Positions 17,930 to 45,099 of a stretch of DNA of 64,000 nt are shown here, piece after piece. Each line of letters opens with the position of its first letter. Within the stretch, counting starts at the first letter, position 1. This stretch comes from Chryseobacterium carnipullorum (GTDB taxonomy: Bacteria; Bacteroidota; Bacteroidia; Flavobacteriales; Weeksellaceae). The translations under genes were made by a program, and so were the position numbers. Below the pieces are notes generated by a model, which was given only the letters and a program-made list of their open reading frames with translations, made no database searches and was not told the origin of the DNA. The stretch spans positions 186,001 to 250,000 of the forward strand of contig NZ_FRCD01000001.1 of the NCBI RefSeq assembly GCF_900142785.1, written 5' to 3'.

Positions 17930-17974
17930 TTGATGTCATTTATAAAACGTATTTTTGTGTATTCATAACGCAAA
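17930..17974 (+). promoter_or_regulatory. Predicted promoter with overlapping palindromic operator for the Nudix regulator gene
   Basis: A -33 TTG at 17930-17932, a 17-base spacer and the flavobacterial -7 box TATTTTTG at 17950-17957 place transcription start about 18 bases before the ATG at 17981. The 21-nt palindrome TTTGTGT-N7-ACGCAAA at 17954-17974 overlaps the -7 box and the start point, the expected position for autorepression. Related sites occur at 18850, 18904 and 20086. Confidence 0.65.
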
Positions 17975-17980
17975 TTAATT

Positions 17981-18658
17981 ATGCAGGCTATAAAAGTTGC
18001 AGTAGACGCAGTCATTTTCGGATATTTTGATAAGCAGGACCTTCAGCTCCTTTTAATCAAAAGAAAGATCGAACCATTTAAAGGAGGCTGGGCGCTTCCC
18101 GGAGGCCTTGTTCTGGATGATGAAAACCTGGATGATGCAGTCAAAAGAGAACTGCATGAAGAAGCAGGCATAAAACCTGATTTTTTAGAGCAACTTTACA
18201 CTTTTGGTAACATAGGCCGGGATCCAAGGAACAGAGTGGTTTCTGTAGCTTATCTGGGCCTTGTGAACCCTTCTTATCATGAACTCTTTGCAGACTCAGA
18301 TGCCGAAGACGCCCAATGGTTCAGTGTGAATAAACTTCCCACCCTTGCATTTGATCATAAAACCATCATTGATATGGCGTTAAAAAGACTTCGTACCAAA
18401 ATACAGTACCAGCCGATCGGCTTTAATCTTCTCAATGAAGAATTCCCTTTTTCAGACCTAGAAAACCTTTACAGGACTATTGTCGGGCGCGAGATAGACC
18501 GCAGAAATTTCCGTAAAAAGATCATGAGCTACGAACTGCTTACTGAAACCAACAATGTAAAAAAAGAAGGGAGCGGAAGACCTGGAAAACTTTTTACATT
18601 CAACCAGGAGAAGTATGAAGAACTTGAAAAAGAAGGATTCTATTTCGAGATCAAATAA
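17981..18658 (+). CDS. NrtR-type regulator: Nudix domain plus winged helix
   Basis: A 225-residue protein with an N-terminal Nudix domain (about residues 1-140) and a C-terminal winged-helix region (about 150-225). The Nudix box is intact: it starts at the Gly of PGGLVLDDE near residue 41 and runs to RELHEEAGI, so both metal-binding Glu are present. The C-terminal part contains FDHKTIIDMALKRLRTK and RNFRKKIMSYELLTETN, typical of NrtR-family proteins, which sense ADP-ribose or related NAD metabolites and repress NAD genes. The 16-gene ADP-ribose run starts 267 bases downstream, and a shared palindrome occurs at both promoters. In some Bacteroidota, Nudix regulators control sugar genes; the neighbourhood argues for NAD/ADP-ribose here. 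Confidence 0.88.
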   Translation: MQAIKVAVDAVIFGYFDKQDLQLLLIKRKIEPFKGGWALPGGLVLDDENLDDAVKRELHEEAGIKPDFLEQLYTFGNIGRDPRNRVVSVAYLGLVNPSYHELFADSDAEDAQWFSVNKLPTLAFDHKTIIDMALKRLRTKIQYQPIGFNLLNEEFPFSDLENLYRTIVGREIDRRNFRKKIMSYELLTETNNVKKEGSGRPGKLFTFNQEKYEELEKEGFYFEIK

Positions 18659-18726
18659 CTTCCCATTCCATGACATATTCTGTATAAATTTACATCAAAA
18701 ATCTCTTGTTTTCCTGTTTAAATCAA

Positions 18727-18748
18727 TTGAACTAAAATTTTAGTTCAA
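18727..18748. repeat. Perfect 22-bp palindrome upstream of the ADP-ribose run
   Basis: TTGAACTAAAA is followed immediately by its reverse complement TTTTAGTTCAA with no spacer. It lies 69 bases after the regulator's stop codon and about 180 bases before NADAR. No T run follows, so a terminator is unlikely; a protein-binding site is more plausible. A second inverted repeat, TTTCAAAT-TGG-ATTTGAAA, sits at 18791-18809. A -7-like TATATTTG lies at 18751-18758 between them. Confidence 0.6.
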
Positions 18749-18849
18749 TGTATATTTGTGCTATTTGTGAAAATATTAGTATCATTTGTGTTTCAAATTG
18801 GATTTGAAATATTTATTTTTTTTTATTTGATAATCAGTAGTTTAGTTAT

Positions 18850-18924
18850 TTAGTGTTAAAATAACGCAAATATATTTTGGCGGTATAATGAGATTTTTTT
18901 ACATTTGTGTAATAATAACACAAT
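18850..18924 (+). promoter_or_regulatory. Predicted promoter of the ADP-ribose run with two palindromic operators
   Basis: Site A at 18850-18870 is TTAGTGT-N7-ACGCAAA. A -33 TTG at 18877-18879 and the -7 box TACATTTG at 18900-18907 form a promoter with a 20-base spacer. Site B at 18904-18924 is TTTGTGT-N7-ACACAAT, overlaps the -7 box and ends just before the ATG at 18926. Both sites match the palindrome at the Nudix regulator's own promoter with the same 7-base spacer, so the regulator probably represses this run. The leader would be only about 12 bases long. Confidence 0.65.
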
Positions 18925-18925
18925 C

Positions 18926-19468
18926 ATGAAATGCACCCTACAATATATTATTGAAAGATTTCAGGAAAAAGAAAAACTGGATTTTCTATTTTTCTGGGGA
19001 CATACCGTGAAAGATCAGATCACCAAATCATGTTTCAGCCAATGGTTTCCCATTCAATTTGAAGAAAATGGAATCCTCTATAAAACCGCTGAACATTATA
19101 TGATGGCGGGAAAAGCAAAATTGTTTAACGATCAGGAAATTTTAGAAAAGATTGTAAAGGCTGAAACACCGGATCAGGCTAAAAGTCTTGGAAGAAAAGT
19201 CAAAAATTTTGATCCGAAACTCTGGGACGAACATAAATATGAAATAGTAAAAAATGCCAATCTTCTGAAGTTCTCCCAAAATTCAAAATTTAAAGATTTT
19301 CTCTTGTCTACAGATAATAAGATCCTGATTGAAGCAAGTCCTTATGACAGGATTTGGGGAATCGGAATGCTGGAAACGGATTCCAGAGCGAAAGACCCCG
19401 CTCTATGGAATGGAGAAAATATGCTCGGTTTTGCTTTAATGGAAGTAAGGGACGAATTAAGAAGATAA
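18926..19468 (+). CDS. NADAR-family protein (YbiA-like)
   Basis: A 180-residue NADAR domain. Landmarks are FFWGHT near residue 24, SCFSQWFPIQF near 36, the helix YKTAEHYMMAGKAKLF near 52-67, and ASPYDRIWGIGM near 140. NADAR proteins act on ADP-ribose linkages: members have been shown to remove ADP-ribose from guanine bases in DNA, while YbiA-type members act on riboflavin-pathway intermediates. Here the context of macrodomains, PARG and KptA favours an ADP-ribose substrate. An in-frame TTG at 18905 lies inside the -7 box, so I start at the ATG at 18926. It is the first gene of the run. Confidence 0.9.
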   Translation: MKCTLQYIIERFQEKEKLDFLFFWGHTVKDQITKSCFSQWFPIQFEENGILYKTAEHYMMAGKAKLFNDQEILEKIVKAETPDQAKSLGRKVKNFDPKLWDEHKYEIVKNANLLKFSQNSKFKDFLLSTDNKILIEASPYDRIWGIGMLETDSRAKDPALWNGENMLGFALMEVRDELRR

Positions 19469-19497
19469 ACACAATCACTAAACACAAAATAAAAATT

Positions 19498-20046
19498 ATG
19501 GAAAAAACAGAACTGCACCCACAGATATTTCTCATTGAAGATTTTTTGACTGCTGAGGCCTGTGATAAATATATTGCAATGGCTGAAGGAAAAGTATTTG
19601 AAGAAGCTCAGATCAATGTACATGGACGCCAAATGATGAGTAAAGGCATCAGGAATAACGACAGACTAATGATTTTTGATCATGATTTAGCAGAAGATCT
19701 TTTCAGAATAGCGGAACAATTTCTCCCTCAGGAACACGAAAATTATAAGCTTCTGAATTTCAATGAAATGTTCAGAGTTTATAAATATACGCCCGGACAG
19801 AGGTTCAAAATACACAGAGACGGAAGCTATATCCGCAACGAACATGAAAAAAGTTTCTACACTTTCATGGTTTATCTGAATGATGACTTCGAAGGAGGAG
19901 AAACAGAATTTGAAAACTTGTTTACAGTCGCTCCGAAAAAAGGATCTGCACTGGTTTTCTATCATCCGCTAAGACATGAAGGGAAAATCCTGATCAGCGG
20001 TAAAAAGTATGTTTTGAGAACCGATGTCATGTATTCCAACAAATAA
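19498..20046 (+). CDS. 2-oxoglutarate/Fe(II)-dependent oxygenase, prolyl-4-hydroxylase-like
   Basis: A 182-residue double-stranded beta-helix dioxygenase. The iron ligands are visible as HRDG in RFKIHRDGSYI (about residue 106) and the distal His in HPLRHEGKILISGKKYVLRTDV (about residue 159), with the Arg of LRTDV suited to bind 2-oxoglutarate. FYTFMVYLNDDFEGGETEF is the P4H-like core. Members hydroxylate protein side chains or, in AlkB-like branches, nucleic acids; this one is closest to prolyl-4-hydroxylase type. I use the ATG at 19498, 29 bases after NADAR. The intergenic bases contain two ACACAAW half-sites (19469 and 19482). Confidence 0.85.
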   Translation: MEKTELHPQIFLIEDFLTAEACDKYIAMAEGKVFEEAQINVHGRQMMSKGIRNNDRLMIFDHDLAEDLFRIAEQFLPQEHENYKLLNFNEMFRVYKYTPGQRFKIHRDGSYIRNEHEKSFYTFMVYLNDDFEGGETEFENLFTVAPKKGSALVFYHPLRHEGKILISGKKYVLRTDVMYSNK

Positions 20047-20085
20047 AATTCTTTAAAAGAAGAAGCATTGTTATGCCCTTTTTAT

Positions 20086-20106
20086 TTAGCGTAAAAACAA
20101 CACAAA
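20086..20106. promoter_or_regulatory. Fourth copy of the predicted NrtR-type palindrome
   Basis: TTAGCGT-N7-ACACAAA lies in the 70-base gap before the gene at 20117, with the same arm sequence and spacer as the sites at 17954, 18850 and 18904. I see no clear -7 box beside it, so it could be an internal control point or part of a weak promoter. Confidence 0.55.
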
Positions 20107-20116
20107 AAAGATAAAA

Positions 20117-20452
20117 ATGGAAGACGACTTAAAACCAAGATTCATCCAGTCATTACAGAGAAACAATGACCAGATCAGAGAAGACCGTGCACGAACCATC
20201 GGAGCAGATTCCGAATTGATTTACAGGCGCAGGGTGGAAGACATTGACCTTAAGATCAAGAGACTGGAAAGAGAACAGGAAGCCCTCATTGACATCAGCC
20301 CTTTAGACAGGAACAGCCTCACATTTGCAGACTTTCAGCCCGAGGCATTTGTTCAGAAAGATATAGAATATTCATTAACCCTCAGAAATTTAAATATTCA
20401 GTTAGAAGTCGCAGTGAAGAGATTTGAATATTTATTCGGTAAAACATTTTAA
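20117..20452 (+). CDS. Small charged helical protein, unknown function
   Basis: A 111-residue protein rich in Arg, Glu and Asp with a predicted coiled coil near residues 20-58 (RARTIGADSELIYRRRVEDI and on through LKIKRLEREQEALIDI) and a second helix near the C-terminus. No catalytic motif is recognisable. The VWA-domain gene starts 3 bases after its stop and the PurA-like gene follows that at once, so the three are tightly coupled. An adaptor for the VWA protein is a reasonable guess only. Confidence 0.75.
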   Translation: MEDDLKPRFIQSLQRNNDQIREDRARTIGADSELIYRRRVEDIDLKIKRLEREQEALIDISPLDRNSLTFADFQPEAFVQKDIEYSLTLRNLNIQLEVAVKRFEYLFGKTF

Positions 20453-20455
20453 ATT

Positions 20456-21307
20456 ATGGGAAGTACAAGATACGATATGGACGCTCGTTTCGACAGAGCA
20501 AGAAAAGAAGGATACGGATCTAAATCCGCAGGTGAAATTTTCACTCAGAATGCAAAAAGAATGGCTCATGAATCTATGAACCCAAAAGGTATTTCTTTCA
20601 GAGAGTCGAGAGATTCATCCGTACACCCGAACTCTGTTCCCATCATCTTAGGATTGGATGTGACCGGCAGTATGGGACATATTCCCCACGAACTTATTAA
20701 AGAAGGATTGCCTAAATTAATGGGTGGAATTATTCAGGGCGGTGTTCCGGATCCCGCACTTTTATTCTTAGGAATCGGAGATCATGAATGTGATGCTTAT
20801 CCTCTTCAGGTCGGGCAGTTTGAGTCAGGAGATGAAGAGCTGGATATGTGGCTGACCCGTACTTATATTGAATCCGGCGGTGGCGGAAATGCAGGAGAAA
20901 GTTATCTTCTCGCGTGGTATTTTGCCGCTTTTCACACCAGAACGGATGCTTTTGAGAAGAGAAATCAGAAAGGACTTTTGTTTACCGTAGGTGATGAACC
21001 TTGTCTGAAAACGCTTCCGGCATCAGCAATCAGAGAAATAATGGGAGCCGGACAGCATACTTTTACGCACTTTGACCTCTTGGAAGAAGCCCGAAAAAAG
21101 TATGAAGTGTATCACATCAATGTTGTCCATTCAGACCAGGCCATGAGAGCAAATGGCGGCTGGAAAGAATTGTTAGGGCAAAACTGTTTATCCATAGAAG
21201 ATCACAGGGAAATTCCCAATGTAATTAAAGGAATTATCTGCGATACCTATAAAAATAAAACCTTCCTGTCAGGAGATAAAAACGGATTTGATATTCAAAT
21301 GTTTTAA
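20456..21307 (+). CDS. VWA-like (MIDAS) domain protein
   Basis: A 283-residue cytoplasmic protein. After a charged, glycine-containing N-terminus (MGSTRYDMDARFDRARKEGY) it has a von Willebrand factor A-like domain: strand PIILGLDVTGSMGHIP carries the metal-ion-dependent adhesion site DVTGS (Asp at residue 68), followed by FLGIGDHECD and GLLFTVGDEPCLKTLP, the expected later strands. There is no signal peptide. Intracellular VWA proteins usually act as assembly or regulatory partners of another enzyme; the neighbours are the helical protein upstream and the PurA-like enzyme 3 bases downstream. The Gly-rich loop GGGGNAGESY is notable and could be a ligand contact. Confidence 0.8.
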   Translation: MGSTRYDMDARFDRARKEGYGSKSAGEIFTQNAKRMAHESMNPKGISFRESRDSSVHPNSVPIILGLDVTGSMGHIPHELIKEGLPKLMGGIIQGGVPDPALLFLGIGDHECDAYPLQVGQFESGDEELDMWLTRTYIESGGGGNAGESYLLAWYFAAFHTRTDAFEKRNQKGLLFTVGDEPCLKTLPASAIREIMGAGQHTFTHFDLLEEARKKYEVYHINVVHSDQAMRANGGWKELLGQNCLSIEDHREIPNVIKGIICDTYKNKTFLSGDKNGFDIQMF

Positions 21308-21310
21308 GTC

Positions 21311-22381
21311 ATGAAAAAAGCACAAATAGTAATAGGCTTGGGTTTTGGAGATGAAGGAAAGGGAATCACGACAGATTTCCTGGCGCAGCAAAACCCGGAT
21401 TCTTTGGTTATCAGATTTTCCGGAGGCCAGCAGGCCGCGCATACTGTAATGATTGATGGTAAAAAGCATATTCATTCCAGCTTTGCAAGCGGGGCACTTC
21501 GGGGACTACCGTCCTATTTTTCGGAACATTGCACGATTCATCCTGTGTTTTTACTGAACGAAAGGAAGGAATTAATGGAGAAAAATGGAAATACTGAACT
21601 GCATATTCATCCGCTGGCGAAAGTCACCACTCCGTTTGATGTCTGGCAAAACAGAACCAATACAAAGAATCTGGAGCACGGAACCTGTGGAAAAGGAATT
21701 GGAGCGACCATGAAAAGACATGAAAGCCCATACAAACTATTTGCTGCAGATTTGATAGCCCCAAGAGCGATGCTGATCGAAAAATTAAAAGGAATTGCTT
21801 ATTACTATGGCTTTATAGACGAAGATCAGGTAAATGAAGCTCTGCATGATTTCTTGAATGCGGTAGACGGGATCGATTGGAAAATAGAGGGTTATACCTA
21901 TCTGAATTCATTTGAGAATCTCATATTTGAAGGGAGTCAGGGAATTTTGCTGGATATGGATCACGGGGTATTTCCCAATGTAACCTATGCCCATACCACT
22001 TCAAAAAATGCTTATGAGATCTGTCAACTTTTGAAAATCGAGGATATCGAAATATATTATGTGACCAGAATATATTCTACACGTCATGGAAGCGGATGGA
22101 TGAGCAATGAAAAGGAATTGGTGCTGAAAAATAATAAAGAGGAAACCTGTATTTTTAATGAATATCAGAAAGAGTTTCGATTTGGAGAACTGGACTATGA
22201 CTTACTCAACTATGCCCTCCTTTTGGATGGCGCTTATGGAACAGCAACCCAAAAGAATCTTGTCGTTACGTGTCTGGATCAGACCGATGAGCAATTTAAA
22301 AAAGAGAATATAAAAACAGAATTTGACCAGATCTATGGATCCTATTCTCCGTTTTCAAAAGACTTTAAACCAATTTTTTAA
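21311..22381 (+). CDS. Divergent, shortened adenylosuccinate-synthetase (PurA) homologue
   Basis: 356 residues against about 430 for housekeeping PurA. Retained: the P-loop and catalytic Asp FGDEGKG (Asp14), GGQQAAHT with the catalytic His (His44), GTCGKGIG, FEGSQGILLDMDHGVFPNVT and STRHGSGW. Changed: the TKLD/NKxD guanine-specificity motif reads VTCLDQTD with the Lys replaced; the Arg-rich aspartate-binding loop of PurA (TTGRRRRTGWLD) is replaced by FRFGELDY; and the C-terminus is short. This suggests a ligase that keeps phosphoryl activation of a 6-oxo purine-like group but uses a different amine and perhaps a different NTP. That is inference. It begins 3 bases after the VWA gene. Confidence 0.85.
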   Translation: MKKAQIVIGLGFGDEGKGITTDFLAQQNPDSLVIRFSGGQQAAHTVMIDGKKHIHSSFASGALRGLPSYFSEHCTIHPVFLLNERKELMEKNGNTELHIHPLAKVTTPFDVWQNRTNTKNLEHGTCGKGIGATMKRHESPYKLFAADLIAPRAMLIEKLKGIAYYYGFIDEDQVNEALHDFLNAVDGIDWKIEGYTYLNSFENLIFEGSQGILLDMDHGVFPNVTYAHTTSKNAYEICQLLKIEDIEIYYVTRIYSTRHGSGWMSNEKELVLKNNKEETCIFNEYQKEFRFGELDYDLLNYALLLDGAYGTATQKNLVVTCLDQTDEQFKKENIKTEFDQIYGSYSPFSKDFKPIF

Positions 22382-22433
22382 ACCAAATAATGGTTTTATA
22401 TTTAATGGCAGAACGGAGCCGAATACCAGTAGA

Positions 22434-23030
22434 ATGATGAAAGAATTTGAAATAAGAGCAGATTACAACAGAGATACGATCGTGATATACCAGTCATACA
22501 ATGAGCAGATTGCAAAATCTGCCGTGATGAATCAGAAGTTTTCTGCTCCTTTTTCATTCAAAAGGATGACGTGGATCAAACCTTCTTTTCTCTGGATGAT
22601 GGAAAGAAGTAATTACGGACAAAAATCCGGACAGGAATGTACGCTGGCCATCCATATTAAACGAGAAGCATGGGAAAAAGTACTAGGCAAAGCCATTTTA
22701 ACTTCTCCTGAAAAAAGGGTGTATCCCGATCCCGGAATCTGGGAAAAAGACTTTGAGAATGCTGAGGTTTATGTACAGTGGGATCCGGAAAGGAATATTA
22801 AAGGGAATAAACTGGAGTACCGTTCCATTCAGGTAGGCATTAGCCGGTATCTGATTGAAGAATTTAATAATGAATGGATCGTTAAAATTGAAGATTATAC
22901 ACCTTTGGTCAAAAAGATCTTACATTTTACCAAATCGGGAGCATATGATAAAGCAAAAAAACTGTTACCAATTGAAAAATTGTATCCATTGTCCACTGAA
23001 CTGGCTCATAAAATAGGAGCAATTATTTAA
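22434..23030 (+). CDS. DUF4291 family protein, copy 1
   Basis: A 198-residue protein from the ATG at 22434 (a second ATG follows directly at 22437). The family core is clear: IRADYNRDTIVIYQSYNEQI, RMTWIKPSFLWMMERSNYG, GQECTLAIHIKREAW and VYVQWDPERN with GNKLEYRSIQVG. I recall DUF4291 as uncharacterised; its repeated occurrence next to ADP-ribose enzymes suggests a role there, possibly transferase or binding, but I cannot see a definite catalytic signature. In-frame codons reach back to 22323 inside the PurA-like gene, but the family begins near MKEFEIRADY. A paralogue lies at 24759. Confidence 0.8.
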   Translation: MMKEFEIRADYNRDTIVIYQSYNEQIAKSAVMNQKFSAPFSFKRMTWIKPSFLWMMERSNYGQKSGQECTLAIHIKREAWEKVLGKAILTSPEKRVYPDPGIWEKDFENAEVYVQWDPERNIKGNKLEYRSIQVGISRYLIEEFNNEWIVKIEDYTPLVKKILHFTKSGAYDKAKKLLPIEKLYPLSTELAHKIGAII

Positions 23031-23042
23031 AAACAAAAAACT

Positions 23043-23459
23043 ATGAAAACAATACCTCTTTACAGACCGGTTGGAGAAAAAGAAATGATCCTGATTGCAG
23101 AGAATGGATATAAAAAATTTCCACCAAGACTGGAATGGCAGCCTATGTTTTATCCGGTACTGGACGAAAGCTATGCTTCGGAAATTGCTGAAAAATGGAA
23201 TACGAAGGATGAAGCCGGAAATTTTCTTGGTTTTGTTACACAGTTCAAGGTGCTGGAAGAAGCGGTTAGTCAATATGAGACCCAGAATGTGGGGGCAAAA
23301 AATCATAATGAATTTTGGGTTCCTTCTGAAGAACTAGAGGTATTTAATAAGGCAATAGTGGGGAATATTGAGGTGATAAAAGTTTTTGTTGGAAACGATT
23401 TTAAAGAATCAACAGATGCTGAAATTAATAACCTTATTGTCAAACTACAAAAAGGATGA
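23043..23459 (+). CDS. Small protein of the family often labelled ADP-ribosylation/crystallin J1
   Basis: A 138-residue protein with the pattern PLYRPVGEKEMILIAENGYKKFPPRL, then QPMFYPVLDESYA, and near the C-terminus NEFWVPSEELEVFNKAIVGNIEV. I recognise these blocks from small proteins named ADP-ribosylation/crystallin J1 in databases; the true activity is not established. The LYRPVG start and FWVPSEEL block resemble the substrate-gating style of small ADP-ribosyltransferase-like proteins, which is a weak inference. It overlaps the macrodomain gene by 4 bases (ATGA), so the pair is translationally coupled, as in writer-eraser or toxin-antitoxin pairs. Confidence 0.7.
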   Translation: MKTIPLYRPVGEKEMILIAENGYKKFPPRLEWQPMFYPVLDESYASEIAEKWNTKDEAGNFLGFVTQFKVLEEAVSQYETQNVGAKNHNEFWVPSEELEVFNKAIVGNIEVIKVFVGNDFKESTDAEINNLIVKLQKG

Positions 23460-23929
23460 AAAAAATAAACTATTTAAAAGGAGATGCCACCAATCCTCAG
23501 ACAGAAGGAAATAAGATCATCACCCATATCTGTAACGATATTGGAGGTTGGGGAAAAGGATTTGTGATGGCGATTTCTAAAAGATGGAAGCAGCCTGAGG
23601 CAGAATACAGAGAATGGTTTAAAAGTGGAGAAAGTTTCAGTCTCGGAGAGATTCAGATCATAAAGGTTGAAGAAGAGACTTGGGTTTGCAATATGATCGG
23701 TCAGCATAGGACAATAACAAGTTCAAAAGGAATTTCGCCAATAAGATATGAGGCCGTAGAAAAGTGTCTTGAAAAATTAGCTTTTGATGCTTTAAAACTC
23801 AATGCTGAGATACACATGCCGAGAATAGGCTGCGGTTTGGCAGGAGGAAAATGGGAAGAGATTGAACCGATCATTGTAAAAACATTGCTCAGACATGATG
23901 TCTCAGTATATGTTTATGACTTTGAATAA
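23456..23929 (+). CDS. Macrodomain protein, TARG1/Poa1-like
   Basis: A 157-residue single macrodomain. The N-terminal strand and loop are KKINYLKGDATNPQTEGNKIITHICNDIGGWGKGFVMAIS, and the phosphate loop is HMPRIGCGLAGGKWEEI. This is the TARG1/Poa1/ALC1 branch, whose members hydrolyse ADP-ribosyl esters or nucleoside-linked ADP-ribose, or remove phosphate from ADP-ribose 1''-phosphate. In TARG1, as I recall, an Asp follows GCGL; here the residue is Ala, so the chemistry may differ or the protein may only bind. ADP-ribose 1''-phosphate turnover would fit KptA further down the run. Confidence 0.9.
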   Translation: MKKINYLKGDATNPQTEGNKIITHICNDIGGWGKGFVMAISKRWKQPEAEYREWFKSGESFSLGEIQIIKVEEETWVCNMIGQHRTITSSKGISPIRYEAVEKCLEKLAFDALKLNAEIHMPRIGCGLAGGKWEEIEPIIVKTLLRHDVSVYVYDFE

Positions 23930-23946
23930 AAAAAAGAAAATTAATC

Positions 23947-24759
23947 ATGACCAATAAAGGAATGGCGAAAGACACCTTAGAGATCTTAGCCAAAACATAC
24001 TATATAAATGAAGAAAACGAAAAAATAACGATAGAAAAAGAACTTGAAATCTGTAAAAAAGAAACCGTTTTATTTTCGTCAGAACAACTTGCTGAAATCG
24101 CAAAAAGTGAACTTCCGGAAGTCAATTTTGAAACAAAATTCGAAGTCTGGAATTGCAGTTCTTTAAAAGCAATTTTACAACTAGCGGCGGAAGAAAATCA
24201 GGAAAAACTGATGTGTCTGAATTTTGCATCAGCGAAGAACCCTGGTGGCGGATTTATCAATGGCGCCGAAGCACAGGAAGAAAGTCTGGCCAGAACGTCT
24301 GCTTTATATGAAACTCAACTTCAGGCACAAGATTATTATAAGATTCACAGAGCAATGGAATCCTGTTTTTATACCGATATGATGATTTACAGTCCTAAAG
24401 TTCCCGTTTTCAGAAAGGATAAAGGAGAATTACTACCAAAACCTGTTTTGTGTAATTTTATCACTTCTCCTGCAGTCAATGCCGGAGTGGTAAAGCGACA
24501 GGAACCGGAAAGAGCAGATGAAATTTTTGGAGCTATGGACGTACGAACAGATAAAATGTTGGCCTTATCTTTAAAACAGGGAAATGAAACCTTGATTTTA
24601 GGGGCGTGGGGGTGCGGCGTTTTTAAAAACGACCCACAAGAAATTGCAGATTTATTCAAAAAATACCTGCACGGAAAATATAAAAATAAATTTAAAAGAG
24701 TGGTTTTTGCAATTTTAACCAAGAAAAAGGAATTGCTGGAAGTATTCGAAGAAATATAA
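23947..24759 (+). CDS. Bacterial-type poly(ADP-ribose) glycohydrolase (TIGR02452 family)
   Basis: A 270-residue PARG-like macrodomain protein. The PARG signature is present as GGG at residues 100-102 and QEE at 110-112 within SAKNPGGGFINGAEAQEES, so both catalytic Glu are kept. An N-terminal accessory region (about residues 1-65) and the C-terminal adenine-binding segment NETLILGAWGCGVFKNDP complete the fold. The enzyme is expected to cleave ADP-ribose chains or terminal ADP-ribose from proteins. It starts 17 bases after the macrodomain gene; its last base is the first base of the next start codon. Confidence 0.92.
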   Translation: MTNKGMAKDTLEILAKTYYINEENEKITIEKELEICKKETVLFSSEQLAEIAKSELPEVNFETKFEVWNCSSLKAILQLAAEENQEKLMCLNFASAKNPGGGFINGAEAQEESLARTSALYETQLQAQDYYKIHRAMESCFYTDMMIYSPKVPVFRKDKGELLPKPVLCNFITSPAVNAGVVKRQEPERADEIFGAMDVRTDKMLALSLKQGNETLILGAWGCGVFKNDPQEIADLFKKYLHGKYKNKFKRVVFAILTKKKELLEVFEEI

Positions 24760-25400
24760 TGAAACTTAAACTAAAAAAATATAAAGAACAACTACAGGAT
24801 TGGCCTCAGGAGGGATATCACCTCATGGCCCAATACGATAATGACAGAATTATTGTATATCAGTCCTATCGAAAAAATATAGGTGAATTTGCCGTTAAAA
24901 ATCAATATTTTGGAGGTGAATTCAGTTTGGACAGAATGACTTGGATCAAGCCTAATTTTCTTTGGATGATGTACAGAAACGGATGGGGAACAAAAGAAGG
25001 GCAGGAATATGTTCTAGCCATTCATTTGAAAATGTCTGCTTTCAAAAAATATGTAGAGAATGCAGTTTATTCTTCCTACAATGATAGTTTGGGAATTTCC
25101 CGGGAAGCATGGCAGGCTGAGGTAAAAGCATCTTCTGTGAGATTGCAATGGGATCCGGATCATGATCCTTTTGGGAACAAGCTGGAGAGAAGGGCAATAC
25201 AAATTGGGTTGCGAAATGAATTCACCCGTTCTTTTGCTCATGAAGATGTCCTCTTAATTGAAAATATTTCAGATTTTGTGAAAGAACAATACGAGTTTGT
25301 TTTAAGGGATGATTTGGATAACCTGATCATTCCTCAGGAAAGACCACTGTTGTTCAATGATAAAAGTTTAAATAAAAAGTTAAGATTATATCAGAACTAA
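24759..25400 (+). CDS. DUF4291 family protein, copy 2
   Basis: A 213-residue paralogue of the protein at 22434. It shares RMTWIKPNFLWMMYRNGWG, GQEYVLAIHLK, VRLQWDPDHDPFGNKLERR and AIQIGLRNEF, at positions matching copy 1, but has a longer N-terminus (MKLKLKKYKEQLQDWPQEGY) and a different C-terminal tail. Its start codon shares a base with the PARG stop codon (TAATG), so the two are tightly coupled. Two diverged copies in one run imply non-identical roles. No function can be assigned from sequence alone. Confidence 0.85.
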   Translation: MKLKLKKYKEQLQDWPQEGYHLMAQYDNDRIIVYQSYRKNIGEFAVKNQYFGGEFSLDRMTWIKPNFLWMMYRNGWGTKEGQEYVLAIHLKMSAFKKYVENAVYSSYNDSLGISREAWQAEVKASSVRLQWDPDHDPFGNKLERRAIQIGLRNEFTRSFAHEDVLLIENISDFVKEQYEFVLRDDLDNLIIPQERPLLFNDKSLNKKLRLYQN

Positions 25401-25406
25401 TTTGCC

Positions 25407-25913
25407 ATGAATATTGAACTGATAAAAGGAGACATCACAAAAATCTCCGCAGACGCTATTGTCAATGCCGCGAATTCATCATTGCTCGGCGGCGGCGGAG
25501 TAGATGGAGCTATTCATCGTGCAGGAGGAAAGCAGATTCTCGAAGAATGTATCCAGATCAGGAACAGACAGGGAAAATGCAATACCGGGGAAGCTGTGGC
25601 CACTTCAGCAGGAAATCTTCCGGCGAAGTATGTAATTCACACGGTAGGACCTGTTTGGAACGGAGAAGAAGATAAAAGCTCAAAGCTTTTGGAAGACTGT
25701 TATAGAAATTCCTTGCAACTGGCGGAAAGTTTGGGTATTAAAACCATTGCTTTTCCAAATATCAGTACGGGAATTTATCAATTTCCAAAAGAACTGGCCG
25801 GAAAAATTGCCGTAGAAACAGTAAAGAATTTTCAGGCAGAAACCATTGAGAAAGTTATTTTTGTGTGCTTTGATGATGACAATGAAAAGATTTACAAAAA
25901 ATTATTAGATTAA
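25407..25913 (+). CDS. MacroD/YmdB-type macrodomain, O-acetyl-ADP-ribose deacetylase-like
   Basis: A 168-residue macrodomain of the MacroD class. Diagnostic motifs are [36 protein letters not shown] (the catalytic loop), and the phosphate loop [13 protein letters not shown]. These enzymes remove O-acetyl from O-acetyl-ADP-ribose, the sirtuin product, and mono-ADP-ribose from acidic residues. The gene for a Sir2 deacylase follows 4 bases downstream, giving a direct producer-consumer pair. It is clearly a different branch from the macrodomain at 23456. Confidence 0.94.
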
Positions 25914-25917
25914 AACA

Positions 25918-26604
25918 ATGAAAAAACTAATCATATTAAGCGGTGCAGGAATCAGCGCTGAAAGCGGAATAAAAACATTCAGAGACGGAGATGGTCTCTG
26001 GGAAAATCATAATATAACAGACGTAGCAAGTCCGGAAGGATGGAGAAAAGACCGGGAACTGGTGCTGGAATTTTACAATCAGAGAAGAAGACAGCTTCAT
26101 GAAGTTGAACCTAACGAAGCCCATCGATTAGTCGCAGAACTCGAAAAATATTTTGATGTTCAGATCATTACCCAAAATATAGATGACCTGCATGAAAGAG
26201 CCGGATCTACAAATATCATTCATATTCATGGGGAGCTATTCAAGTCTTGCTCATGCAACAATAAAAACCTGATCTATGAAGAGAAAGGAGATATAAAGAT
26301 TGGAGACAAAGCGGAAGATGGAGCCCAGTTAAGACCTTTTATCGTATGGTTTGGGGAAGATGTTCCTTTGTATAAGACTGCTCAGGAGAAGGTAAAAGAA
26401 GCAGATATTATGGTCGTCATCGGAACTTCTCTGCAGGTATATCCTGCGGCAGGATTGATCCATGACATCAAAGATGACTGTTTGCTGGTGGTCATCAACC
26501 CTAATGAAACAGGATTCGGATATGGACAAAGAGCGGTAGTGATGAAAGAATCAGCAACTCAGGGAATGAAATTGCTGTTTGATAAATTGGTTAATCTTGC
26601 CTGA
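25918..26604 (+). CDS. Sir2-family NAD-dependent deacylase (class III, CobB-like)
   Basis: A 228-residue sirtuin. NAD-binding GAGISAESGIKTFRDGDGLW is at residues 9-28, TQNIDDLHERAG with the catalytic HIHGEL follows near residue 100, and GTSLQVYPAAGL near residue 170. FYNQRRRQL supplies the Tyr-x-x-Arg of class III enzymes that prefer malonyl, succinyl or glutaryl lysine. The structural zinc ribbon is eroded: only SCSC is visible and the second Cys pair is missing before LRPFIVWFGE. I recall similar loss in other Bacteroidota sirtuins. The stop overlaps the glycohydrolase start by one base. Confidence 0.93.
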   Translation: MKKLIILSGAGISAESGIKTFRDGDGLWENHNITDVASPEGWRKDRELVLEFYNQRRRQLHEVEPNEAHRLVAELEKYFDVQIITQNIDDLHERAGSTNIIHIHGELFKSCSCNNKNLIYEEKGDIKIGDKAEDGAQLRPFIVWFGEDVPLYKTAQEKVKEADIMVVIGTSLQVYPAAGLIHDIKDDCLLVVINPNETGFGYGQRAVVMKESATQGMKLLFDKLVNLA

Positions 26605-27545
26605 TGGAAAATGTAGTAAAAGCCGGAATTTTTGGAGTATGCATCGGGGATGCGCTGGGAGTTCCGGTGGAATTTAAGAAAAGAGAAGATTTAAAGAGAT
26701 TCCCAGTTACAGGTTATCTGGAATTCATGTCCTGGAACCAGCCCAAAGGAACTTGGAGCGATGACAGCTCATTAACGCTTTGTATTGCTGATGTACTTAC
26801 AAAAGGGTATGACTTAGAAAAGATCGGACAAAGCTTTGTAAAATGGAATAAATATGGACACTGGACCGCTCACGGAAGGCTTTTTGATATAGGAGGAACC
26901 ACAAGACATTCGATTGCACGATTGATCAAAGGTGAAAGCGCCAGATTTTCAGGAAATATTTTTGAAGAAGATAATGGGAATGGCTCTTTAATGAGAACAC
27001 TTCCCTTGGCCTTTTATCTTAAAGATGAAGTAGATATTGAAAAATTATATCAAACCGTAAAAGAGGTTTCAGCCATTACGCATGGACATTTCAGATCTGT
27101 TTTCGCCTGTTTCATATATGTTATTTTTACCATTGAACTGATTAAGGGAAAAAGTAGAAAAGAAGCTTATACGCATATGCAAAAGATAGCTTTGGAATAC
27201 TCAGAAATTCAAGGCTTTAACCTTAAAGAGATAGAGCTGTTTCACAGAGTTTTAAAAAATGATATTTCAACTTATTCCGAAGAAGAAATTAAAAGTGGCG
27301 GCTATGTCCTCCACAGCCTCGAAGCCTCCCTTTGGTGTTTTCTCAACTCTGAAACCTATGCAGAAGCCGTGTTGAAAGCGGTGAATTTAGGAGAAGATAC
27401 AGACACCACAGGAGCTATTACCGGAGGAATTGCAGGTATTTACTACGGATTTGAAAGTATTCCGGAAGAATGGGTCTCTGATTTGGTGAGGAAAGAGGAT
27501 ATTGAGGCTTTATGCGAAAAACTTTATAAAAAAATATACAATTGA
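26604..27545 (+). CDS. ADP-ribosylglycohydrolase (DraG/ARH-like)
   Basis: A 313-residue all-helical ADP-ribosylglycohydrolase. The dinuclear magnesium ligands are visible in GTWSDDSSLTL near residue 50 and in GEDTDTTGAITGGIAGIYYG near residue 265, with GVCIGDALGVPVEF at the N-terminus. DraG-type enzymes remove mono-ADP-ribose from arginine in proteins, and relatives act on serine, on O-acetyl-ADP-ribose or on modified bases. It starts on the last base of the Sir2 stop codon and overlaps the next gene by 4 bases. It is the fourth ADP-ribose hydrolase-type fold in this run. Confidence 0.94.
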   Translation: MENVVKAGIFGVCIGDALGVPVEFKKREDLKRFPVTGYLEFMSWNQPKGTWSDDSSLTLCIADVLTKGYDLEKIGQSFVKWNKYGHWTAHGRLFDIGGTTRHSIARLIKGESARFSGNIFEEDNGNGSLMRTLPLAFYLKDEVDIEKLYQTVKEVSAITHGHFRSVFACFIYVIFTIELIKGKSRKEAYTHMQKIALEYSEIQGFNLKEIELFHRVLKNDISTYSEEEIKSGGYVLHSLEASLWCFLNSETYAEAVLKAVNLGEDTDTTGAITGGIAGIYYGFESIPEEWVSDLVRKEDIEALCEKLYKKIYN

Positions 27546-28069
27546 TTGAAATAAGAGATTTTAAAATAGACAAAGTCTGTAATGAAATTAAAATCGTTTT
27601 AAATGAACTTGCAGAAAAAGAATACGAAAACAACATCGGTAATAGACTATGGACAAAATATATTATAAAAAAATTTAAAGAACTAGGGCATAGTTATGGT
27701 TTTGATGTTTGTCCAGATGCAGATAATGGTAACTCGGAATGGCTTTATGATATGATCTGGTATAAGAATAAAGATGGATATCTAAAGGAAATTCCGTTTG
27801 TGATGGAATCAGAATGGAGCTACGGTTATGATTGTGTGCGTTACGATTTTGAAAAATTATTGCAGGCTGATGCCAGGTTAAAATTAATGATTTGCTGTCA
27901 TAAAAATGGAGTAGCTGACATTAATTATTTTAAAGAGTACTTTTCTAAAGCTATTCAATGTTATCATAAGTCTTCAGCTTCAATATATTTATTTGCAATT
28001 TTACAAGATTGGGAGCCATTCAAATTTGAGTTTTATTACTATGATAATTTTTGCTTAAAAGAATTTTAA
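27542..28069 (+). CDS. Unknown protein with weak nuclease-like features, TTG start
   Basis: A 175-residue protein that I do not recognise. The TTG at 27542 overlaps the preceding TGA (TTGA), a layout like the ATGA couplings elsewhere in the run, and no other good start exists upstream of the conserved-looking core. The middle contains EWLYDMIW, then VMESEWSYGYD, DFEKLLQADARLKLMIC: an acidic residue before a tryptophan, an ExE pair and a hydrophobic strand, as in some restriction-endonuclease-like folds. That resemblance is weak and no Lys of a PD-(D/E)XK motif is certain. Position between the glycohydrolase and KptA suggests an RNA or ADP-ribose role. Confidence 0.65.
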   Translation: MIEIRDFKIDKVCNEIKIVLNELAEKEYENNIGNRLWTKYIIKKFKELGHSYGFDVCPDADNGNSEWLYDMIWYKNKDGYLKEIPFVMESEWSYGYDCVRYDFEKLLQADARLKLMICCHKNGVADINYFKEYFSKAIQCYHKSSASIYLFAILQDWEPFKFEFYYYDNFCLKEF

Positions 28070-28071
28070 CC

Positions 28072-28614
28072 ATGAACGAAATAGAAAACAAAAGAATAAG
28101 CAAATTTCTAAGCCTTATTCTGAGACATCAACCCGAAATCATTGAGCTTAGACTGGATGAAAACGGTTGGGCAGAAGTGAATGAACTCATTACAAAATCT
28201 GCAAAAGGAAGAATGCACTTCAGTTTTGAAGACCTCGAGGAAGTGGTAGAAACCAATAATAAAAAACGGTTCGCATTCAATGAAGATAAAACCAAAATCA
28301 GAGCCAGTCAGGGACATTCCATTGCGATAGATCTGGCCCTGAAAGTCGCGCAGCCACCAGATTTTCTGTATCACGGAACAGCACAATCGAATATTTCTTC
28401 TATTCTGGACAACGGAATTGAAAAAAGAAGCCGCCAGCATGTTCATCTAAGCGCAGACAAAGAAACCGCCACGAAAGTAGGAATGCGCCACGGAAAACCC
28501 GTTATTCTGACCATCAGAACAAAGGAAATGCATGATGACGGAATCGCTTTTTATCTTTCAGCCAACGGTGTTTGGCTGACTGATTTTGTGGATGCAAAAT
28601 ATATTTCAAAATAA
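28072..28614 (+). CDS. kptA: RNA 2'-phosphotransferase KptA/Tpt1
   Basis: A 180-residue KptA. The N-terminal winged-helix lobe has KFLSLILRHQPEIIELRLDENGW, and the ADP-ribosyltransferase lobe has FLYHGTAQSNISSILDNGI, HVHLSADKETATKVGMRHG and GVWLTDFV. The Arg-His-Arg-Arg set of Tpt1 (LRH, YHGT, the Arg of GMRHGKP and an Arg between) appears complete. The enzyme uses NAD to remove an internal RNA 2'-phosphate, releasing nicotinamide and ADP-ribose 1'',2''-cyclic phosphate. Bacterial KptA has no known tRNA-splicing role and is thought to act in RNA repair. I use the ATG at 28072, 2 bases after the preceding stop. Confidence 0.95.
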   Translation: MNEIENKRISKFLSLILRHQPEIIELRLDENGWAEVNELITKSAKGRMHFSFEDLEEVVETNNKKRFAFNEDKTKIRASQGHSIAIDLALKVAQPPDFLYHGTAQSNISSILDNGIEKRSRQHVHLSADKETATKVGMRHGKPVILTIRTKEMHDDGIAFYLSANGVWLTDFVDAKYISK

Positions 28615-28615
28615 G

Positions 28616-29374
28616 ATGGGCAGAACATTAGTAATCGGTGATATTCACGGAGGTTTTAAAGCCTTACAACAGGTTTTTCAAAGAGCACAAGTAGGAGAAA
28701 AGGATATCCTTATTTTTCTCGGAGATTACGTTGATGGCTGGAGCGAATCTGCTCAGGTCATCCAGTTTTTGATGGAACTTTCCCAAAAACAGGAATGCAT
28801 TTTCATTAAAGGGAACCATGATGCCTGGTGTGAGGATTGGCTGAGCCTTGGAGACAAACCCGATGTCTGGCTTTTCAATGGTGGGAAAAGTACCGTTGAA
28901 AGTTACAACGATTATCCGCTGGAAGATCTGGATCTTCACCTTGAATTCTTTCAAAGGATGAAAAACTACCATGTAGATGCCGGAAACCGCTTGTTTATCC
29001 ATGCAGGATATTCCTCTATGCATGGTCCTGAAAAAGAAGTCTATTCCACCAATTACCGCTGGGACAGAACCCTTTGGGAAACCGCAGTAGCAATGGATAA
29101 AAAATTAGAAAAAAATTCAGCACTTTATCCGAAAAGACTCCTTTTATACCATGAAATCTTTATCGGACATACACCAACATTAGATATAGGAATTAAGCAT
29201 CCTGTTAATAAAGCGAACGTCTGGAATATCGATACCGGAGCAGCTTTTACAGGCGTTTTGTCAATGATGAATATCGATACCAAAGAATTCTGGCAAAGCG
29301 ATCCGCTTCCTTCTTTATATCCGGACGAAAAAGGCAGAAATAACGATAGTGCAGGAAATAAAACCCTATTATAA
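28616..29374 (+). CDS. PPP-type metallophosphatase (ApaH/PrpA-like)
   Basis: A 252-residue calcineurin-like phosphatase with the full metal-site set: GDIHGG (residues 8-13), GDYVDG near 40, KGNHDAW near 70, FIHAGY near 130 and GHTPT near 186. Relatives include bacterial Ser/Thr phosphatases and ApaH, which hydrolyses Np4N and removes NAD-like caps from RNA. After KptA, a role in processing RNA ends or ADP-ribose cyclic phosphate is plausible, but protein phosphatase activity is an equal possibility. The ATG at 28616 follows the kptA stop by one base. This is the last gene before the terminator. Confidence 0.9.
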   Translation: MGRTLVIGDIHGGFKALQQVFQRAQVGEKDILIFLGDYVDGWSESAQVIQFLMELSQKQECIFIKGNHDAWCEDWLSLGDKPDVWLFNGGKSTVESYNDYPLEDLDLHLEFFQRMKNYHVDAGNRLFIHAGYSSMHGPEKEVYSTNYRWDRTLWETAVAMDKKLEKNSALYPKRLLLYHEIFIGHTPTLDIGIKHPVNKANVWNIDTGAAFTGVLSMMNIDTKEFWQSDPLPSLYPDEKGRNNDSAGNKTLL

Positions 29375-43162: not shown

Positions 43163-43190
43163 AAGAACGGAACAGAAATGCTCCGTTCTT
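43163..43190 (+). terminator. Hairpin terminator of glmM
   Basis: AAGAACGGA (43163-43171) pairs with TCCGTTCTT (43182-43190) around a 10-base loop, followed by TTGTTCTTC. It overlaps an in-frame ATG at 43178 of the next gene, which argues for the later start at 43208. Confidence 0.75.
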
Positions 43191-44933: not shown

Positions 44934-45099
44934 CCACAATTTGCGTTATTTATCCACAATCTTTTTATCTGTTTTCTTTTTTTACTATCTTTATTATAGA
45001 AATTTATGAAAAACTAATTCAAAAAAAAGTTGCAACTTTGCATAAACATTTGAATGTCAGTTTCAGAAGTTATTATTAATTAATAAAGTTTGCCGAGGT

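Follow-up and report, generated by a model that had tools for sequence, protein, structure and literature searches.

Transcription regulators of the NrtR/AraR superfamily couple a Nudix domain to a winged helix-turn-helix (wHTH) domain, and in the NrtR proteins of Shewanella and Synechocystis the operators lie 5' of genes for the salvage of nicotinamide adenine dinucleotide (NAD) and of the regulator's own gene. Biogenesis of phosphoribosyl pyrophosphate (PRPP) is also said to have been named among NrtR targets by Rodionov in 2008. Here we analyze a comparable locus in a stretch of 64,000 nucleotides of Chryseobacterium carnipullorum (contig NZ_FRCD01000001.1, positions 186,001 to 250,000), hereafter the window, in which four palindromes accompany a gene for a Nudix-wHTH regulator and a long operon for the removal of ADP-ribose. 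These palindromes occur exactly as described and far more often than chance would give, and they are very probably the operators of the neighboring regulator, as judged from the sequence. The system appears to be a NAD regulon of the NrtR type that also takes in an operon for ADP-ribose removal; it is a known kind of switch for which the layout, the NAD target, and a possibly active enzyme domain are new details.

The closest solved structure is that of AraR from Bacteroides thetaiotaomicron (BtAraR; PDB codes 5bs6 and 5ddg), for which tandem sites are known. According to PMC4666351, the protein contacts in the BtAraR-DNA crystal define GTGT (with GTGT at 7 to 10, ACAC at 18 to 21, and a gap of 7 in its Table 2), and the ligand is contacted by Arg34, Arg86, and His131. 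PMC4666351 and PMC6800001 further describe the Nudix boxes of NrtR and AraR proteins as impaired, several NrtR proteins as inactive, and the ADP-ribose pyrophosphohydrolase activity of MsNrtR as undetectable, and they provide SoNrtR, Synechocystis NrtR, and MsNrtR as precedents for ADP-ribose as the inducer. A second point of reference is the set of ARG-centric ADP-ribose conflict systems of Iyer et al. (2022; PMC9503650), which have Nudix or WYL repressors and are proposed to be induced by ADP-ribose, with the suggestion that the regulator's Nudix domain may join in ADP-ribose processing.

The locus in the window shares features with each of these. It resembles the NrtR systems in domain composition and in the placement of its predicted operators; it differs from them in its unimpaired Nudix box, in its AraR-like recognition helix and operator core (GYGT-N7-ACRC), and in the inclusion of a large operon for ADP-ribose removal in the predicted regulon. 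The core spacing and DNA-contact residues are those of BtAraR, from which it departs in its intact Nudix box, in a predicted regulon of NAD and ADP-ribose rather than arabinose genes, and in its paired sites, which start 54 bp apart (a 33-bp gap) as against gaps of 3 bp or 42 nucleotides (nt) in Bacteroides. No arabinose-utilization gene occurs among the genes that we classified (the window operon, pncB, 19 chosen class-level genes, and homologs of window genes), with no search aimed at arabinose. With the ARG-centric systems it shares a Nudix-HTH repressor beside PARG, Macro, NADAR, vWA, and phosphatase genes of variable composition. The latter set was picked for the absence of linked sirtuins and ADP-ribosyltransferases (ARTs) and comes from several lineages, among them actinobacteria, planctomycetes, and proteobacteria, whereas here the host is a member of Bacteroidota, operators are defined, and pncB carries the same operator. 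Genes for SIR2 and KptA are frequent here, the 74 full-length loci having SIR2 in 70, KptA in 67, and PARG in 54, so that the definition by a PARG without a linked sirtuin or ART does not apply. A very similar induction idea is already in print (PMC9503650), and this lowers the novelty of ours. In the literature searched we did not meet the operator code and its frame at promoters, the extension to pncB, or the class-wide association described below; older key papers lie outside it, and we make no claim of absence from print. That literature likewise contained no paper on NrtR with PRPP and nicotinamide phosphoribosyltransferase, and, judged by title or the start of the abstract, none of its items on NrtR in Flavobacter dealt with this system.

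Predicted operators and promoters

The original prediction had recognized four palindromes with a common 7-nt spacer, and these are exact at all four positions (17954, 18850, 18904, and 20086). The pattern TTWGYGTN7ACRCAAW with no mismatches finds five matches in the window (four places, one on both strands), where 100 dinucleotide shuffles average 0.00; with two mismatches allowed the excess is weak (12 matches against a mean of 6.2, with at least 12 in 3 of 100 shuffles), and thus only the tight motif is informative. For comparison we used a set of 80 named loci (L223 to L302; 1.61 Mb), mainly from Chryseobacterium with Elizabethkingia, Epilithonimonas, and one Flavobacteriaceae record, which were scanned for sites with up to one mismatch. 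The features of the regulator and promoter region are as follows.

17950..17957, + strand: -7 box TATTTTTG of the regulator promoter; TAnnTTTG at the same place in 80/80 named loci
17954..17974, unstranded: predicted operator 1 (autoregulation), TTTGTGTATTCATAACGCAAA; site in 80/80 named loci
17981..18658, + strand: Nudix and wHTH regulator of the NrtR/AraR superfamily, 225 amino acids (aa), Nudix box intact; Pfam NUDIX 1.1e-20, NrtR_WHD 3.4e-22, AraR_C 2.9e-13
18850..18870, unstranded: predicted operator 2, distal member of the pair, just 5' of the -33 element, TTAGTGTTAAAATAACGCAAA; pair in 78/80 named loci
18877..18879, + strand: -33 TTG of the operon promoter, 20 nt 5' of the -7 box; TTG at 19 to 21 nt in 77/77 measured pairs
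18900..18907, + strand: -7 box TACATTTG of the operon promoter; TAnnTTTG in 77/77 proximal sites measured
18904..18924, unstranded: predicted operator 3, proximal member of the pair, 54 bp past operator 2, TTTGTGTAATAATAACACAAT
20086..20106, unstranded: predicted operator 4, internal, 5' of the 20117-vWA-adenylosuccinate synthetase (AdSS) block, TTAGCGTAAAAACAACACAAA; third site in 68/77 loci with a measured pair

The sigma-A box of Flavobacterium psychrophilum is TAnnTTTG at -12 to -5 (PMC9723704), which places the operators at the promoters at about -8 to +13. A common frame unites these sites, in that the TTTG of the left arm is at the same time the TTTG of the -7 box: such a box is overlapped on the gene strand by all 80 sites at the regulator promoter and all 77 proximal sites but by none of the 77 distal and 68 third sites. 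The claim that the first and third palindromes overlap -7 boxes with very short leaders was borne out, the leaders being about 19 nt (regulator) and 14 nt (operon) if transcription starts 5 bases past the -7 box. Operators 2 and 4 of the window carry TTAG where the others carry TTTG, as do 76 of the 77 distal and 62 of the 68 third sites, and neither overlaps a TAnnTTTG box on the gene strand.

Conservation before orthologous operons, which the prediction had named as a check, is extensive. Every named locus has a single site at the regulator promoter, and 77 have a downstream pair within +600 to +4500, with one more pair (L249; spacing, 54 bp) at +6878; the three sites of L249 are the only ones found elsewhere in the set. 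The two loci with no pair, L236 and L273, are on contigs that stop 266 and 630 bp past the regulator gene, and given a median gap of 251 bp (range, 37 to 750 bp), L273 may truly lack a nearby pair. Spacing within the 77 measured pairs, start to start, is 54 bp in 70, 53 bp in 4, and 55 bp in 3. With the proximal site on the -7 box and the distal site past the -33 TTG, two dimers would bracket the core promoter. A reverse-strand promoter at the distal operator was considered and rejected as a general feature, since the corresponding -7 box is present in only 13/77 loci. In one genome (G009), the operon and its pair lie about 42 kb away from the regulator.

Specificity in whole genomes and a fifth site at pncB

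In the 5.15-Mb genome of the window, perfect matches to TTWGYGTN7ACRCWAW occur at the four window places only. At one mismatch a backward-pattern control is commoner (16/17) than the motif (9/12), and thus loose matches mean little alone; two one-mismatch candidates were set aside, namely, window position 44940 (TTTGCGTTATTTATCCACAAT), treated as chance, and C19:130212, which lies within the 3' end of a reading frame. Among 18 genomes of the genus, the 16 with an orthologous regulator each carry two or three strict palindromes, none of them farther than 3 kb from that gene, and the two without one (G031 and G039) carry none; the control gave one match in two genomes. The tighter pattern TTTGYGTDN5HACRCAWW, applied without mismatches to 14 whole genus genomes, finds the regulator promoter in 14/14 and the proximal operator of the operon in 13/14 (G002 drops out through a C that the pattern does not allow), together with one off-locus match in 13/14, which lies at pncB in 12 of those 13 (G004 falls outside that check). 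All matches listed lie at these three places, and the backward control has no match in any of the 14 genomes. Thus, the tight motif is not scattered at random through the genome. In 13 relatives there was no further off-locus match to this tight pattern, which would also miss a one-mismatch copy. Across 26 family genomes (two of them also in the 18-genome set), strict matches occur in 10 and control matches in 7. The strict match of G246 is the promoter of a truncated regulator. The strict matches outside a regulator locus are in G065 and G077, neither of which has a regulator match at E ≤ 1e-60; they stand at the level of the control, have no query gene in their flanks, and were treated as chance.

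The off-locus site of the window's own genome (G000:C11:51863; TTTGCGTTAAAATTACACATA) ends 2 nt 5' of the ATG of pncB, the gene for nicotinate phosphoribosyltransferase (locus L005), which was identified by NCBIfam TIGR01514 (434.8 bits) and is the sole match to PF04095 in the genome. We sought pncB in 31 other genomes and obtained the locus in 30. Of the 22 genus genomes that have the regulator, 21 carry the site (20/21 when our own is set aside), whereas none of the four that lack it (G031, G229, G242, and G246) does. All 22 pncB sites found (20 genus genomes with the regulator, our own, and G039) overlap TAnnTT[T/C]G, 21 as TAnnTTTG and one as TAAATTCG, and the first ATG follows the operator by 0 to 2 nt; the site of G058 is a variant with TTCGCGT. 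The prediction had tied an NrtR-type regulator to the ADP-ribose operon; that link holds in the computational checks, but the fifth site had been missed, and with it the probable reach of the regulon into NAD salvage. As judged by the sites, the predicted regulon thus includes NAD biosynthesis or salvage genes, a trait of NrtR.

The link among regulator, motif, and operon is also apparent from losses: where the regulator is gone, the motif is mostly absent or decayed, with G039 as an exception. In G246 the only matching piece of the regulator is residues 1 to 58; operator 1 is intact in front of it, genes for SIR2 and ADP-ribosylglycohydrolase (ARH) follow closely 3', and the pncB site is lost. 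Matches to KptA are fragmented or contain stops in G031 and G229, G246 and G039 have none, and that of G242 has 41% identity. Owing to the relatedness of these genomes, the co-loss amounts to a few events, not dozens.

The regulator protein and its Nudix box

The regulator matches Pfam NUDIX, NrtR_WHD, and AraR_C, all above their cutoffs, which places it in the superfamily, and its predicted operators 5' of its own gene and of target operons are of the kind typical of that superfamily. The nearest solved structures are 5bs6 (BtAraR; 2.5e-50) and 3gz5 (Shewanella NrtR; 2.1e-33), both over nearly the full length, and from these sequence matches the fold can be taken as settled. The score against NCBIfam NF050029 (ADPR responsive transcriptional repressor) is 142.6 bits, below the curated cutoff of 400. 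The BtAraR DNA contacts Lys179, Arg180, Asn181, Lys184, and Arg205 align to R174, R175, N176, K179, and R200, and the geometry of the core equals that of the crystal operator, GTGT-N7-ACAC. Likewise, the ligand-contact residues of BtAraR and SoNrtR (Arg34/Arg41, Arg86, and His131, with BtAraR numbering counted by hand) fall on R28, R80, and H126 in the alignment; R80 and H126 are kept in 31/31 rows with an intact box (see below).

The Nudix box, GX5EX7REUXEEXGU, is intact in the window protein, in 48/48 genus and family loci, and in 80/80 named loci (these sets overlap). An impaired box is a trait described for characterized NrtR proteins, not a strict definition of them. In a tree of 47 rows, scored with G or N allowed as the last glycine of the box (N in 3 rows), the 31 intact-box rows require two changes, a number as low as which was reached in none of 500 shuffles, and 30 of the 31 share one starred branch with a single broken row, G235. 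Among the genus regulators, only G235 was seen to have a broken box, and its gene adjoins fragments of NADAR and KptA. E57 and E61 are present in 31/31 intact-box rows by construction, the rows having been grouped by box; both are lost in all six paralogs, in BtAraR, and in SoNrtR, and 10 broken-box rows keep E57 in one and E61 in two cases.

Unlike the characterized NrtR and AraR proteins, therefore, this group may hydrolyze its own inducer. The conservation of the box across the named loci, its concentration on one branch, the loss of E57 and E61 elsewhere, the impaired boxes and inactive MsNrtR of the literature cited above, and the occurrence of the broken box of G235 beside gene fragments all favor a repressor that is also a working Nudix hydrolase, destroying its inducer so that the switch times itself out; the residues may, however, be kept merely for metal-dependent ligand binding. 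We give this extension, which adds to the operator reading rather than competing with it, not quite an even chance. More tentatively, the regulator could be a self-timing switch, sensor and hydrolase at once of an ADP-ribose (or derivative) inducer, that couples an exchangeable arsenal for reversing ADP-ribosylation to NAD resynthesis. If so, an ADP-ribosylating attack or a drain on NAD would start repair and refueling together, and the sensor would end the response. An intact Nudix center in a predicted DNA-binding repressor offers a test case for a transcription factor that consumes its own inducer.

Relatives across the class

A survey of 395 genomes of the class recovered a match to the regulator at E ≤ 1e-45 in 114; 40 larger loci were taken, mostly from the tops of the lists and hence not at random; 35 of these lie outside the window's family. 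With a pair defined by sites of at most two mismatches to TTTGYGTN7ACRCAAA, 18 of 27 intact-box homologs outside the family have one, at a spacing of 51 to 55 bp, and one homolog with a broken box (L143) has a pair at a spacing of 50. NAD-salvage genes (PRPP synthetase or NAMPT type) are near 16 of the 18 loci with a pair versus 1 of the 9 without, where near means a tblastn match at E ≤ 1e-6 within -5 to +7 kb (Fisher P = 1.7e-4, descriptive only, the rows being related), and ADP-ribose genes are near 8/18 versus 0/9. In chosen class loci, the presence of NAMPT, PRPP synthetase, and a Nudix gene that we labeled NMNAT-Nudix was confirmed by Pfam. These distributions make NAD salvage the common theme, with the ADP-ribose operon as a putative addition to it or substitute for it. 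Because related pair-bearing regulators outside the family are mostly near NAD-salvage genes, the protein looks like a regulator of NAD homeostasis to which an ADP-ribose operon is attached and not like a switch devoted to that operon.

Three loci show further arrangements. In L148 (G109), the regulator and a pair stand 5' of a gene for a TonB-dependent receptor, perhaps for precursor uptake. In L151 (G067), the first cargo gene past the operators encodes an SPFH/Band_7 protein in place of NADAR. L149 (G128) has a broken-box regulator (51% identity) and two site pairs, one before the regulator and one 8.3 kb off, before homologs of the vWA-like and AdSS genes; the strict match of this genome lies 8 kb 5' of its regulator, ahead of the same two homologs.

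Proposed mechanism and alternatives

The observed motif, its conservation, frame, and spacing, the content of the regulon, the partial co-loss, and the conserved contact residues together lead us to regard it as highly probable that the palindromes are operators through which the adjacent NrtR/AraR-type repressor controls itself, the ADP-ribose operon, and pncB. We infer binding by the regulator, the sign of its action (from operator position and family precedent), the identity of ADP-ribose as inducer (from the precedents of SoNrtR, Synechocystis NrtR, and MsNrtR), and cooperation between the two sites of the pair. At the regulator, operon, and pncB promoters, one dimer would cover the -7 box and the start, always in one frame of about -8 to +13, and so block sigma-A RNA polymerase. 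The operon would have another dimer 54 bp or about five helical turns upstream, beyond the -33 element, that tightens repression. When NAD consumption or the cleanup of ADP-ribosylated molecules raises free ADP-ribose, or a SIR2 or KptA derivative of it, the ligand would bind the Nudix domain and the DNA would be released, yielding more ADP-ribose-removing enzymes and more PncB, so that NAD could be rebuilt from nicotinate.

NADAR, macro, PARG, and ARH enzymes release ADP-ribose. The earlier wording that the operon is inducible by its own substrate is thus inaccurate, since free ADP-ribose would mostly be a product of the operon's enzymes; induction by a product would constitute positive feedback, which the Nudix domain might bring to an end. 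For bacterial operons of the NADAR/macro/PARG/KptA kind, operators, a frame, and a likely regulon are here pinned down in one genus, and the operator at pncB suggests that the cell ties ADP-ribose cleanup to the refilling of NAD.

Several observations weigh against this reading. Nine of the 27 intact-box class loci show no pair. The pncB site is absent from G008, which has the regulator, and from G067, G109, G119, and G128, which are from other genera of the family and have a regulator homolog; conversely, G039, an 87%-complete assembly, keeps the pncB site with no regulator orthologue found. In G013 and G038 (L204 and L205) the regulator is interrupted by a stop, due to either recent inactivation or a sequencing error, while the operon and its sites are intact, which renders these two cases uninformative. 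In place of the ligand arginine R28, 9 of the 31 intact-box rows have Q and 1 has P, a -33 TTG at 17 to 23 nt is missing from the regulator promoter in 46/80 named loci, and the scheme gives no role to the internal site, operator 4. Finally, the counts come from related genomes and hence are not independent.

An alternative is that the regulator acts mainly as an activator, or in a dual manner, with the distal site recruiting polymerase and the proximal site modulating it. The location of the distal operator just 5' of the -33 element, at nearly constant spacing, recalls the place of a class I activator, but a site over the -7 box and start at three promoters, the lone site at the regulator's own promoter in 80/80 loci, and the description of NrtR and AraR members as repressors in the literature cited above make this improbable. 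That the palindrome serves another regulator, such as a member of the Crp/Fnr group or one of the Nudix paralogs, with an incidental association, is most improbable, for although the genome holds four further matches to the regulator (five in total at E ≤ 0.001) and the window a Crp-like gene at 43178 (named by eye), site presence tracks this regulator except in G008 and G039, six paralog loci have palindromes of other sequence or none in the 250 bp 5' of the matched stretch, and the core geometry is that of the crystal operator of a protein from this very superfamily.

Genes and variable cargo of the operon

The predicted target of the Nudix-wHTH protein is a likely operon from 18926 to 29374, with the following genes.

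18926..19468, + strand: NADAR domain gene, first of the operon; Pfam NADAR 1.2e-55
19498..20046, + strand: 2OG-Fe(II) oxygenase; Pfam 7.8e-12
20117..20452, + strand: 111-aa protein of no family; no Pfam, PADLOC, or NCBIfam match
20456..21307, + strand: vWA-like protein; DVTGS motif by eye, no Pfam match
21311..22381, + strand: AdSS paralog; Pfam 3e-43, under the NCBIfam purA and PurZ cutoffs
22437..23030, + strand: DUF4291 protein, first copy; Pfam 8.3e-68
23043..23459, + strand: 138-aa protein; no family matched in Pfam, PADLOC, or NCBIfam
23456..23929, + strand: Macro-like (DarG-like) protein; Pfam Macro 3.2e-4 (21.1 bits; cutoff, 22), PADLOC DarG 1.3e-11
23947..24759, + strand: microbial-type PARG; Pfam 2.3e-49
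24759..25400, + strand: DUF4291 protein, second copy; Pfam 3.2e-63
25407..25913, + strand: Macro domain protein; Pfam 3.1e-49
25918..26604, + strand: SIR2; Pfam 4e-44
26604..27545, + strand: ARH/DraG-type ADP-ribosylglycohydrolase; Pfam 1.5e-75
27542..28069, + strand: 175-aa protein; no Pfam or NCBIfam match
28072..28614, + strand: Tpt1/KptA RNA 2'-phosphotransferase; Pfam PTS_2-RNA 7.9e-55
28616..29374, + strand: metallophosphatase-like protein, probable last gene; NCBIfam matches below cutoff to ApaH, PrpE, and Ser-Thr phosphatases

Besides the SIR2, KptA, and PARG counts given above, the 74 full-length loci contain ARH in 63, NADAR in 61, and AdSS in 52, with one DUF4291 query matched in 37 and the other in 19, as counted by tblastn with the window proteins, which misses divergent members. 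The cargo varies behind constant operators, much as the modules vary in the conflict systems described by Iyer et al. (PMC9503650). No paper mentioning DUF4291 turned up in the literature searched. The gene after the third site is a homolog of that at 20117 in 47 of 65 cases among the full-length loci, and the block of 20117 to 22381 (the 111-aa protein, the vWA-like protein, and the AdSS paralog) often travels together with its own 5' operator. In G008 (L206), a shortened operon and a lost pncB operator form a natural partial regulon.

Between the regulator and the operon, a perfect 24-bp palindrome, ATTGAACTAAAATTTTAGTTCAAT, occupies 18726 to 18749 and is followed by another TAnnTTTG-like box. 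It was rejected as a part of the operator system, its 22-base core being kept in 0/80 named loci, and is possibly the terminator of the regulator gene or another control site. Other repeats with arms of at least 9 occur at that spot in 19/77 loci, and some relatives have repeats that are similar to it or terminator-like.

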